A stretch of 64,000 bases of DNA from contig AP024629.1 in NCBI GenBank assembly GCA_019670725.1, positions 1,984,001-2,048,000 on the forward strand, written 5' to 3'. This stretch comes from Alphaproteobacteria bacterium SO-S41 (GTDB taxonomy: Bacteria > Pseudomonadota > Alphaproteobacteria > Micropepsales > Micropepsaceae). The notes beneath the pieces were generated by a model. The model saw only the letters and a list, made by a program, of their open reading frames with translations. It had not been told where the DNA came from and did not search any database. The translations under genes were made by a program, and so were the position numbers. Shown in pieces: positions 29,391 to 32,060 of the stretch (positions are counted from its first letter, which is position 1; every line of letters starts with the position of its first letter).

Positions 29391-29463
29391 GCGGGTCCAC
29401 CTGACGGAAACGGAAGGCGCGAGGAGTGCCAGAAGCCCTCTCTTGCCGCAAGACGACGTTACG

Positions 29464-29928
29464 TCAGCCGAGGTCAGACTCCGAGAACTCGGCCACGACG
29501 TAACGAGGCCCGGCGCCCAGCCGGGCGGCGCGGTCTTCGCGGTTATAGAGCGCGCAGGTTTTCAGCGAGAGGCAGCCGCAGCCGATGCAGCCGTCCAGTC
29601 GTTCGCGCATGCGGGTGAGGGCGGCGATCTTGTCGTCGATCGTCGCGCGCACCGCGCGGCTGATGTCGTTCCAGTCCTTGCGGTTCGGCGTGCGGCCTTC
29701 GGGCAGGCGGCGGAGCTGGCCTTCGATGTCCTGGATGGAGAGGCCGAGCATCTGGGCAATGACGACGAAGGAGAGGCGGCGGATGTCGGAGCGCGGGAAG
29801 CGCCGCTGGCCGCCGGTATTGCGGATGGGGTGAACCAGCCCCTTCGCCTCGTAGAAGCGGATCGCCGAGACCGAGAGGCCGGTGCGCGCGGCCAGCTGGC
29901 CGATGGAAAGCAGGTCGGTGCTGAGCAT
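29464..29928 (-). CDS. soxR: Redox-sensitive transcriptional activator SoxR
   Basis: A 154-residue MerR-family regulator. The winged HTH is LSIGQLAARTGLSVSAIRFY with RNTGGQRRFPRSDIRRL, followed by a dimerisation helix. The [2Fe-2S] cluster is formed by Cys114, Cys117, Cys119 and Cys125 (CIGCGCLSLKTC), spaced exactly as in E. coli SoxR. Oxidation of the cluster by redox-cycling compounds or nitric oxide turns it into an activator. The gene is divergent from a VOC gene whose promoter holds a SoxR box. No soxS is near, as expected outside enteric bacteria, where SoxR controls its targets directly. Confidence 0.96.
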   Translation of the reverse strand: MLSTDLLSIGQLAARTGLSVSAIRFYEAKGLVHPIRNTGGQRRFPRSDIRRLSFVVIAQMLGLSIQDIEGQLRRLPEGRTPNRKDWNDISRAVRATIDDKIAALTRMRERLDGCIGCGCLSLKTCALYNREDRAARLGAGPRYVVAEFSESDLG

Positions 29929-29961
29929 GTGTGACGAGCGTCGCAGGTGCCAGATGGAAGC

Positions 29962-29992
29962 TTGACCTCAACTTAGGTTGAGGAATTACAAA
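29962..29992 (+). promoter_or_regulatory. SoxR box within a 19-base-spacer promoter
   Basis: CCTCAAC-TTAG-GTTGAGG (29966-29983) is a perfect seven-base inverted repeat, very close to the known SoxR operator (CCTCAAG-N4-CTTGAGG). It overlaps -35 TTGACC (29962-29967) and lies before TACAAA (29987-29992). The -35 to -10 spacing of 19 bases is the hallmark of MerR-type activated promoters. The direction is plus, toward the VOC gene at 30047. Confidence 0.88.
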
Positions 29993-30046
29993 ACGCAAAC
30001 CGAAGCGATCCCCGGCGCGTCTGTGCCGGACAGAAGGAGAGAAGAG

Positions 30047-30406
30047 ATGCGTCAGGCAGTGTTGGAACACGTCAACATCACGGTCAGCGACCCCGTCCGC
30101 ACGGCGGCGCTGATGACCGTGCTGTTCGGCTGGCAGGTGCGCTGGCAGGGTCCGGCCAAGCTGGGTGGGCATACCGTGCATGTGGGGCCGGAGGACTGCT
30201 ATCTCGCGGTCTATTCGAACGGGTCCGCGCCGCCGACCGGGCGGTTGAACCATGTCGGCGTCGTGGTCGGTGATCTCGATGCGGTCGAGAAGCGCGTGCT
30301 GGCGGCCGGCTATCGCACGCACAGCCATGGCGACTACGCGCCCGGCCGCCGGTTCTATTTCAACGACCACGACGATATCGAGTTCGAGGTCGTCAGCTAT
30401 GACTGA
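30047..30406 (+). CDS. VOC (glyoxalase-like) family protein, SoxR target
   Basis: A 119-residue single VOC domain (LEHVNITVSDPVRTAALM at the start, LNHVGVVVGDLDAVE in the second half, FYFNDHDDIEFEVVSYD at the end). His8, Glu and similar ligands fit a metal-binding fold; members include glyoxalases, drug-binding and dioxygenase proteins. ATG 30047 follows AAGGAGAGAAGAG. It is the first gene after the SoxR box, so it probably detoxifies or binds a redox-active compound. The next gene overlaps its end by eight bases. Confidence 0.88.
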   Translation: MRQAVLEHVNITVSDPVRTAALMTVLFGWQVRWQGPAKLGGHTVHVGPEDCYLAVYSNGSAPPTGRLNHVGVVVGDLDAVEKRVLAAGYRTHSHGDYAPGRRFYFNDHDDIEFEVVSYD

Positions 30407-30929
30407 CACGGCGCTGCGCGAGACGGAGGGGATGACGGTGATCCTCTATCGTGGCGCGGGCGGCGCCGCGCTGCTGGCCGGCGTGCTGCGCATCGCCAGC
30501 GCGTTCATTCCCTACGCGCCGGATCAGGCGGCGCTGGAGACCGTATTCGGCTTGGTGGATCTCGGCTTGCTGTTCGGGACCATCGGCATCTATCTCGCGG
30601 ATCGCGACGCGCTGGGCCTTGCAGGGCTAGCGGGGTTCGTCGTGCTGCTCTCCGGCATCGCCAGCATTGTCGGCCCGGACAGCGTGTTTCTCGGCGTCAA
30701 CACCTATGCGGTCGGCGTGAACGTCATCGCCGCCGGCGCGGTGATCCTTGCGGTGCAATGGCTGCGGACGGGGCGGCTGACGACCAGCGCGCTCACGCTG
30801 ATCAGTTCGGTCGCGATCGGCGGGATTGGCCCGGTGGCGGGGCTGGGCGGCGCATCGTTCGTCGCGGCGGGCGTGTTGTTCGGGATCGCCTATGCCGCCG
30901 CTGGATTACATCTGCTGCGCCGGTTCTGA
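30399..30929 (+). CDS. Small polytopic membrane protein, SoxR operon
   Basis: A 176-residue hydrophobic protein with about six transmembrane stretches (for example AALLAGVLRIASAF, LGLLFGTIGIYLA, GLAGFVVLLSGIASIVG, VNVIAAGAVILAVQWL, FVAAGVLFGIAYAAAGLHLL). No transport or catalytic motif stands out and I do not recognise the family. ATG 30399 lies eight bases inside the VOC gene, so both are expressed from the SoxR-controlled promoter. A role in handling redox-active compounds at the membrane is inference from context. Confidence 0.8.
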   Translation: MTDTALRETEGMTVILYRGAGGAALLAGVLRIASAFIPYAPDQAALETVFGLVDLGLLFGTIGIYLADRDALGLAGLAGFVVLLSGIASIVGPDSVFLGVNTYAVGVNVIAAGAVILAVQWLRTGRLTTSALTLISSVAIGGIGPVAGLGGASFVAAGVLFGIAYAAAGLHLLRRF

Positions 30930-30931
30930 GG

Positions 30932-31540
30932 TCAGCGCGGCCGCTTCGCTTTCGCAACCTGCTTGTGGCGGAAGCAGTCGGTCATGTGGTCGTTGACGAG
31001 ACCGCAGGCCTGCATCCAGGCGTAGACAATGGTCGGGCCGCAAAAGGTGAAGCCGCGCTTCTTCAAATCTTTGGAGAAGGCGGTGGAGATGTCGGTCGCG
31101 GCGGGCACCTGCTTGAACGAATTGAAGCTGTTGACCAGCGGCTTGCCGCCGACGAACGACCAGCAATAGGCCGAAAACCCTCCGGGATAGGTCTTCTCCA
31201 TCTCAAGATACGCCTTGGCGTTCTTGATCGCGCCTTCGATCTTGCCGCGATGGCGGATGATGCCTTCATCGCCGAGCAGGCGGGTCACGTCGTCTTCCGT
31301 GAATTTCGAAACCTTCACCGGGTCGAAATTCCTGAACGCCTTCCGGAAGTTCTCGCGTTTCCTGAGGATGGTGATCCACGACAGGCCGGCCTGGAAGCCG
31401 TCGAGGATCAGCTTCTCCCACAGCGCGCGGCCGTCATATTCCGGCACGCCCCATTCGGTGTCGTGATAGTCGAGATAGAGCGGGTCGGACCCGGGCCAGA
31501 CGCAGCCGCCGCGTTGTTTGCCGCTCACGTGTGCAGGCAC
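30932..31540 (-). CDS. tag: DNA-3-methyladenine glycosylase I
   Basis: A 202-residue base-excision enzyme that removes 3-methyladenine from alkylated DNA. Zinc ligands are visible as CVWPGSDPLYLDYHD near the N-terminus and HMTDCF near the C-terminus. The catalytic region is WGVPEYDGRALWEKLILDG with FQAGLSWITILRKRENFR, closely like E. coli Tag. The start overlaps the upstream VOC gene by 16 bases. It converges on the SoxR-controlled membrane protein gene with two bases between stops. Confidence 0.95.
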   Translation of the reverse strand: MPAHVSGKQRGGCVWPGSDPLYLDYHDTEWGVPEYDGRALWEKLILDGFQAGLSWITILRKRENFRKAFRNFDPVKVSKFTEDDVTRLLGDEGIIRHRGKIEGAIKNAKAYLEMEKTYPGGFSAYCWSFVGGKPLVNSFNSFKQVPAATDISTAFSKDLKKRGFTFCGPTIVYAWMQACGLVNDHMTDCFRHKQVAKAKRPR

Positions 31541-31905
31541 GCTTCAATCTTGTTTCCGTCGGGATCGCGCACGAAGGCGCCGTAATAGTGGTGGCCGTAA
31601 TCGGGGCGGGGACCGGGCGGCCCGTCATCGATGCCGCCATGCTTCAGCGCCGCCTCGTAAAAGGCCGCAATCTGCGCCTCGGACTTCGCGTCGAAGCAGA
31701 TATGGACGCCGTTGCCGACGCTGGCGCGGCTGCGGTCGTGCGGCTGCTGAATCCAGAATTCGGGATGATCGACGCCATAGCCGACCGCAAAGGGCGCGAA
31801 ATCCATGACGCGCTTATAGCCGAGCACTTCCATGCAGGCGTCATAGAAGGTGAGCGCCTTGCCCATGTCGTTCGAGCCCAGCGATACGTGATGCACCATG
31901 GCCAT
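31525..31905 (-). CDS. VOC family protein (glyoxalase-like)
   Basis: A 126-residue single VOC domain: MVHHVSLGSNDMGKALTFYD opens the first beta-alpha-beta unit, GNGVHICFDAKSEAQIAAFY the second, and FVRDPDGNKIEACLH is the common C-terminal strand with the metal-binding Glu. Start 31905 follows GGGGAGACGCAAA; the longer reading from 31977 adds 24 unlikely residues. It is coupled to tag by overlap. Function within the superfamily is open. Confidence 0.88.
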   Translation of the reverse strand: MAMVHHVSLGSNDMGKALTFYDACMEVLGYKRVMDFAPFAVGYGVDHPEFWIQQPHDRSRASVGNGVHICFDAKSEAQIAAFYEAALKHGGIDDGPPGPRPDYGHHYYGAFVRDPDGNKIEACLHT

Positions 31906-32060
31906 TTTGCGTCTCCCCAAGAGCGCCGCCAGTATGTGAACAAAAGCGGAACTGTCAAGCACGAAACACAGATGCAATGACGCTCAGGCGGCGGTTGGCG
32001 TAACGGCAGAGCGGAGTCATGCTCCCGCCCATAAAGACATAACAACCAGGGACGGACGCC

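Follow-up and report, generated by a model that had tools for sequence, protein, structure and literature searches.

What SoxR senses outside the enterobacteria, and what it protects against, is still argued. A locus in Alphaproteobacteria bacterium SO-S41 raises this question again: divergently from soxR stand a gene for a protein of the VOC superfamily and, overlapping its end, a gene for a membrane protein, and we ask which of these SoxR controls and what their products may do. The window, by which we mean the whole stretch of 64,000 nucleotides that was analysed, covers positions 1984001-2048000 of a 4.44-Mb single-contig genome. From it and from related genomes we computed the gene identities, the promoter anatomy, the conservation of the SoxR-VOC link, a putative active site and the accessory character of the membrane gene. 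Comparison of the loci strongly supports the VOC gene as a conserved SoxR target, and the membrane protein is an optional accessory to the SoxR-VOC couple.

The identity of the regulator is clear. It scores 176.1 bits against the TIGR01950 equivalog model, whose cut-off is 116.9, and no other protein of the genome matches this model above the cut-off. All four cluster cysteines noted in the preliminary description are in place, and the CX2CXCX5C motif is present in each of the 142 non-identical SoxR proteins that we gathered. Equivalog score, cluster motif and an inverted-repeat box in an over-long spacer of 19-20 bp, three features of the SoxR family, are all found here. The box, previously called near-perfect, turned out to be perfect, and it is the sole zero-mismatch TTGACCTCAA-N6-TTGAGG site in the genome, the next site having two mismatches. 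It is also the only match in the window when up to three mismatches are allowed; as shuffled versions of the window give a mean of 2.1 matches at that threshold, only the perfect match is informative. Counting in the sequence bears out the earlier promoter assignment, TTGACC and TACAAA with the box in a 19-base spacer between them. A standard sigma-70 scan of 29400-31000 returned no promoter, as expected, because the scan allows spacers of 16-18 bases. A genomic site with two mismatches (C1:3842939) lies about 40 bases ahead of a Peptidase_S24-type gene; as chance alone would give about two sites of this kind, we do not take it for a further SoxR target. Elsewhere a palindrome, CTTCAACCTTGGTTGAAG (C1:4307063-4307080), directly precedes another MerR-type regulator gene that scores below the SoxR cut-off, and is perhaps the operator of that adjoining regulator itself.

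The link between SoxR and the VOC gene was followed by searching genomes with the VOC alignment as query. At least 250 relatives were confirmed, and the loci named here are the best 80 of them, so that they favour close relatives. In 71 of these 80, SoxR is encoded upstream of VOC and on the other strand. Scored over the 12 specified bases, boxes of no more than one mismatch occur in 54 (48 of the 71 with opposite-strand SoxR and six of the other nine), against none of 1600 equal-size control windows taken from the same loci and one of 1600 shuffles. Maricaulis maris (L099) and Hyphomonas jannaschiana (L100), for example, have a one-mismatch box each. Base frequencies over 79 of the 80 loci read CTTGACCTCAAGTTA..TTGAGG, with CTTGACC at -35 and a conserved TA at -10. 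Three of the nine loci without adjacent SoxR (L112, L119, L168) were checked genome-wide, and all three genomes carry SoxR.

The same is seen in 385 sampled genomes of the class. Among them are 31 genomes with SoxR and 14 with a strong VOC match, that is one above 170 bits, the next best reaching 76 bits. All 14 are among the 31 (hypergeometric p ~2e-17, uncorrected for kinship), and SoxR is adjacent to VOC in 13 of them. A second count takes in 36 of the 37 strong-VOC class genomes, the former 14 included and G699 left out. SoxR is found in the fetched stretch of 30 of these, and the best box within 320 bases upstream of VOC has no mismatch in 13, one in six and two in eight, which gives 27 of the 36 with a box of up to two mismatches. 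The box stays with the VOC gene when SoxR does not: a box of zero to two mismatches still stands ahead of VOC where SoxR is convergent with it (L177, G331) and where SoxR is elsewhere (G359, G634, G673, G782, G796, G799). Nineteen genomes without SoxR at its customary position next to VOC were checked: it is present in 16 (adjacent and convergent in G331), and the SoxR-less ones (G800, G738, G481) are also without a box.

Among the nearest genomes SoxR is rare, with three of 41 above the cut-off, the window's own included. The complete SoxR-box-VOC-membrane layout recurs in G008, of another genus of the same family, and since the whole layout recurs there and its SoxR-box-VOC part in many genomes, the arrangement is more than chance. 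Other SoxR lineages without VOC do exist in some genomes. One is G012 (L027), of the same genus as the window, which has a different SoxR and no VOC in the fetched stretch; its two-mismatch site faces another divergent gene. In a tree of 142 SoxR sequences, in which identical SoxR/VOC entries were counted once and SoxR pieces below 110 residues were left out, the label for VOC in the fetched stretch needs four changes, against a mean of 30 in shuffles. The label stands on 109 of the 142 rows because most rows came from VOC searches, and its absence means that VOC is missing from the sequence fetched, which often extended 1.5 kb to either side; some of the genomes so labelled do have VOC in another place. 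On the strength of this conservation, SoxR almost certainly drives transcription of the VOC gene, and the earlier claim that SoxR drives the operon is on these grounds strongly supported.

The couple is also found beyond the class. A sample of 398 genomes of the phylum contains 53 with VOC matches, 20 of them outside the class, and all 20 were fetched. SoxR stands beside VOC in 11 of the 20 and a box of at most two mismatches precedes VOC in 14; the three of the 20 whose genomes have no SoxR are without the box as well. A metagenome-assembled genome labelled Pseudomonadales (L113) has both SoxR and the box with its VOC gene. Distant VOC genes on two Vibrio replicons (L086:2917 and L087:2926; 32-33% identity) come with a perfect and a one-mismatch SoxR box, and no SoxR was found in the fetched stretches. 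This distribution suggests that the sensor-enzyme couple is a standard, little-studied defence against redox-active chemicals in many related bacteria.

The region upstream of VOC shows some variation of its own. Six loci, mostly with sphingomonad labels, carry another, distinct VOC gene in the interval from the box to the conserved one (L104, 3503-4001; L107, 3604-4143; L109; L111; L148; L156, 1840-2371); the extra gene was Pfam-tested for L107 and recognised by eye in the others. In L116 (3764-3986) and L144 (3767-4001) a small open frame of about 60-80 codons lies between box and VOC, and L125 and L133 have a gap similar to these two. The half-sites themselves have both changed, symmetrically, to CTAAA..TTTAG upstream of VOC in L174, L189, L194, L198 and L088, and these diverged boxes look as if the repeat was retained while its letters changed. 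The VOC gene of G359 (L180:1823-2355) is followed by about three tandem repeats of its 3' part, with a period near 157 bases, which produce extra overlapping frames.

The VOC protein matches the Pfam family Glyoxalase (PF00903) with 36.5 bits at a cut-off of 20.6, and its model, with a pLDDT (predicted local distance difference test) of 93.1, has VOC-fold matches up to Z 14.6. The top structural neighbour is E. coli glyoxalase I (Z 14.6, 115 residues, 2.2 A), with others tied within one Z unit, and the fold neighbours include both metal enzymes and proteins that bind natural products such as tiancimycin. Since glyoxalase I, the oxidase ChaP, FosA and the binding protein TnmS3 all fall at Z 12.3-14.6 within the top 50, the fold picks no function. 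Against NCBIfam, no lactoylglutathione lyase match was found at E up to 1, and the sole match is to fosC, with 13.1 bits at a cut-off of 250. More can be read from the residues. E7, H8, N10, H45, G47, Y52, H69, Y104 and E114 are invariant in all 139 non-identical homologues, and H8, H69 and E114 align with an H, H, E set of 1npb, a fosfomycin-resistance protein, which we take to bind metal there. The three residues are presumed to form a putative metal site, and we consider the protein likely to be an enzyme rather than a binder.

The membrane protein has six helices in its AlphaFold2 model (mean pLDDT 95.4), in line with the six segments predicted before, and resembles little else. None of the Pfam and NCBIfam models, those for transporters and DoxX/MexG-type proteins included, matches above its cut-off; DUF2678 reaches 18.8 bits where 27.8 are needed, and NCBIfam gives nothing. 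A Foldseek search of solved structures returned no match at E up to 0.001. The best Z is 8.5, with the succinate-acetate permease at 8.3 (4.2 A over 158 residues), which is below the level that would count for helical bundles. No sequence in the PDB is related; a search of the genome contigs with this protein alone brought up no relative, and none was found in the plasmid collection. An export role, proposed in the preliminary description, thus finds no direct support in these models, though a transporter gene directly follows VOC in two genomes, EamA in G116 and MFS in L119.

Relatives of the membrane protein are nevertheless found in 18 of 96 genomes of the order and in eight of the 385 of the class sample, two of them shared; with two named loci included and each genome counted once, the total is 26. 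G28, R31, D54, G60, G76, G99 and Y103 are invariant in 18 aligned sequences, the window's included, and R31 and D54 are charged residues inside predicted helices. The same-strand gene just upstream differs between these genomes. It is the SoxR-linked VOC gene in four, namely the window, G008, an uncultured Kordiimonas genome (L090) and a Hyphomonadaceae metagenome-assembled genome (L102). It encodes a questin-oxidase-like protein (PF14027) in seven (L246, L249, L250, L251, L015, L016, L026) and a Rieske-domain protein of about 495 residues in another seven (among L018, L019, L021-L025 and L248; L024 was assigned by eye, as Pfam found nothing there). An amidohydrolase gene takes this place in two, and another gene or none in six (L010, L012, L013, L017, L247, L252). 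Fungal questin oxidase opens the ring of an anthraquinone, and the upstream genes hint that the membrane family is a partner for aromatic- or quinone-handling oxygenases. We also compared the long C-terminal region of the Rieske-domain proteins with the questin-oxidase domain, and the proposal that the two are the same found no support (hhalign probability 1.5).

The two-gene operon with its eight-base overlap stands as previously described, and the overlap, which is four bases in L090 and 11 in L102, may couple the two genes translationally. The idea of a VOC-membrane pair fared less evenly. The pair does recur with SoxR in three further genomes, and the conserved SoxR target is the VOC gene alone. 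As for the suggestion to look for boxes before homologues of the membrane protein, the family is SoxR-VOC-linked in four genomes; elsewhere it mostly follows other enzyme genes, with no box of up to two mismatches at its loci away from SoxR-VOC (L022 included).

The mechanism that we infer extends to induction, metal, catalysis, substrate class and the role of the membrane protein. A redox-active compound, or the electron drain that it causes, would oxidise SoxR, and oxidised SoxR would distort the long-spacer promoter at 29962-29992 and so turn on VOC together with the membrane gene that overlaps it. The VOC metalloenzyme, with its H8/H69/E114 site, would then act chemically on the inducer itself or on something closely derived from it, adding oxygen or a thiol or opening a ring. 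Its target would most likely be a quinone-like or other aromatic redox cycler. The membrane protein may be a lineage-specific helper, for example one that carries the compound, or what it is turned into, into the membrane or through it. By analogy, the VOC enzyme probably acts on the inducing compound itself: toxoflavin, an activator of SoxR in Streptomyces coelicolor (PMC5288332), is degraded by the VOC enzymes TflA, TxeA and ToxM (PMC5749703), a precedent that helps this assignment. Taken as a whole, with SoxR sensing a redox-active compound and inducing a modifying VOC metalloenzyme that the membrane protein helps, the reading is one that we lean towards. We regard as doubtful a bolder version, in which SoxR-VOC is a core, old and undescribed module of Proteobacteria whose VOC enzyme destroys redox cyclers directly, and the six-helix protein serves oxygenases that open quinone or polyaromatic rings in general (VOC under SoxR, questin-oxidase-like, Rieske-domain) as their partner in the membrane, supplying or removing their hydrophobic substrate.

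Several observations weigh against the mechanism that we favour. Three of the 80 named loci (L138, L142, L161) have neither SoxR nor a good box, and nine of the 36 class genomes are without a box within two mismatches (four at three, five at four). SoxR adjoins VOC with no box within two mismatches in the Ruegeria and Tritonibacter plasmid loci, and outside the class three genomes (G487, G530, G696) have SoxR and no good box. Most poor-box sites hold the symmetric variant CTAAA..TTTAG at the same position; no clear repeat precedes VOC in the Ruegeria plasmid locus, G422 and G769. As for the protein, the VOC superfamily is functionally very broad and fold matches do not separate its classes. 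The metal sets of the toxoflavin-degrading enzymes also differ, the ligands reported in PMC5749703 being E/H/E in TxeA and ToxM and H/E/E in TflA, where the invariant set here is by alignment H/H/E. The membrane family, finally, was found after VOC in two of the 80 named loci and was missing from the fetched stretches of the other 78, so that the VOC enzyme can work without it.

Other explanations bear on the promoter, the enzyme and the membrane protein in turn. That the promoter is no SoxR target, box and divergent layout being a coincidence or serving soxR autoregulation only, could draw on the position of the box, which lies within the upstream region of soxR as well, and on the poor boxes at several homologous loci. 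This is very improbable in our judgement, as boxes precede VOC where soxR is elsewhere or convergent (L177, L184, L187, L203, L208), six of the nine named loci that lack a neighbouring SoxR still have the box, and both promoter elements, -35 and -10, are oriented toward VOC. The VOC protein might instead be a non-catalytic binder that sequesters a redox-active compound, in the manner of the VOC proteins that bind bleomycin or enediynes, and its fold matches do include TnmS3 (in complexes with tiancimycin and riboflavin), UcmS2, ZbmA and a bleomycin-binding protein. However, the presumed metal triad and the six further invariant residues persist down to about 30% identity, and nine such positions are more than sequestration alone is expected to need; we hold this account to be quite unlikely.

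We also find it unlikely that the VOC protein, as an enzyme of the glyoxalase or thiol-transferring type, removes secondary reactive electrophiles of redox stress, such as aldehydes or quinone-thiol adducts, instead of the inducer. The first place of E. coli glyoxalase I by Z, tied as it is, and the alignment of the triad with the 1npb residues speak for such an enzyme; the missing NCBIfam glyoxalase I match at E up to 1 speaks against it, as do the published non-enteric SoxR targets, which are transporters and small-molecule-modifying enzymes (PMC4146615). The membrane protein, for its part, could be functionally unrelated to SoxR and merely ride on the operon in a few lineages. Its presence in two of the 80 named VOC loci and its place away from SoxR-VOC in 22 of the 26 genomes would fit this, but the SoxR-VOC-membrane order appears in four separate genomes, and the 14 genomes that place the family after questin-oxidase-like or Rieske-domain genes look more like those of a shared partner. 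We consider a passenger role rather unlikely. Against all of these we still lean towards SoxR-induced modification of a redox-active compound by the VOC enzyme.

The features of the locus are collected in Table 1. On the far side of soxR lie a glycosyltransferase gene and a methyltransferase gene, and beyond the VOC-membrane pair a methyladenine glycosylase gene, a second VOC gene and an HpaB-type hydroxylase gene. Terminator-like sites in 29400-31000 number two where 0.8 are expected, which is near chance. The second VOC gene (31528-31977, minus strand) adjoins the methyladenine glycosylase gene and does not match the profile of the SoxR-linked subfamily, for which the genome has one match at E up to 1e-18.

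Table 1. Features of the SoxR-VOC locus, in positions of the window
Feature	Positions	Strand	Basis
soxR, [2Fe-2S] MerR-family redox sensor, 154 aa	29464-29928	-	TIGR01950 match
Cluster motif CX2CXCX5C (C114, C117, C119, C125)	29554-29589	-	Translation
SoxR box CCTCAAC-TTAG-GTTGAGG, perfect inverted repeat	29966-29983	+	Sequence; kept before VOC homologues
Promoter: TTGACC, 19-base spacer holding the box, TACAAA	29962-29967 (TTGACC), 29987-29992 (TACAAA)	+	Counted from sequence
Likely ribosome-binding site AAGGAG ahead of VOC start	30034-30039	+	Sequence
VOC-superfamily gene, 119 aa, presumed metal ligands H8, H69, E114	30047-30406	+	PF00903, model, alignment
Overlap of VOC and membrane genes, 8 bases	30399-30406	+	Open reading frame coordinates
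Six-helix membrane protein gene, 176 aa, no family above cut-off	30399-30929	+	Pfam, NCBIfam, model

The general kind of system is known. In P. aeruginosa and S. coelicolor, non-enteric SoxR acts directly, with no SoxS in between, on a small set of genes for transporters and small-molecule-modifying enzymes (PMC4146615). Judged by title and abstract opening, none of the open-licence papers listed describes a recurring divergent VOC family as SoxR target. Neither 'glyoxalase' nor 'VOC' appears in the main text of PMC4146615, and the SoxR passages of PMC5045206 and PMC3223726 make no mention of a SoxR-VOC pair, although an earlier survey of SoxR targets may list such genes. Swit_3298 of Sphingomonas wittichii is a glyoxalase-family gene that is not tied to SoxR in the part of PMC4219479 concerned with it. 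A SoxR-tied enzyme family that spans much of one class and other Proteobacteria offers one small soluble protein with which to test what SoxR responds to; its substrate should be the compound that induces SoxR in nature, or a product of that compound. A membrane-protein family for which Pfam has no model comes into view as well, and the genes with which it shares operons point to aromatic or quinone chemistry.

Set beside known systems, the locus shares some features with each. With FosA/FosX and E. coli glyoxalase I it shares the VOC fold (Z 14.6 to glyoxalase I and 12.9 to the Klebsiella FosA), but identities are 15 and 19%, and fosC, the sole NCBIfam match, is far from its cut-off. The questin-oxidase-like proteins likewise stand directly upstream of the same membrane family, whereas they belong to another protein family and have no SoxR, VOC relative or box in the fetched stretches. 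In Pseudomonas aeruginosa and Streptomyces coelicolor the enzymes named as SoxR targets are a monooxygenase, oxidoreductases and an epimerase/dehydratase, which differ from the VOC protein; what the SoxR regulons of both species have in common with this locus is direct control of a few genes that handle redox-active compounds (PMC4146615). TflA, TxeA and ToxM, in turn, are VOC-superfamily metalloenzymes acting on a redox-active compound that activates SoxR in S. coelicolor (PMC5749703, PMC5288332), but their reported metal sets, E/H/E or H/E/E, differ from the H8/H69/E114 set aligned here.

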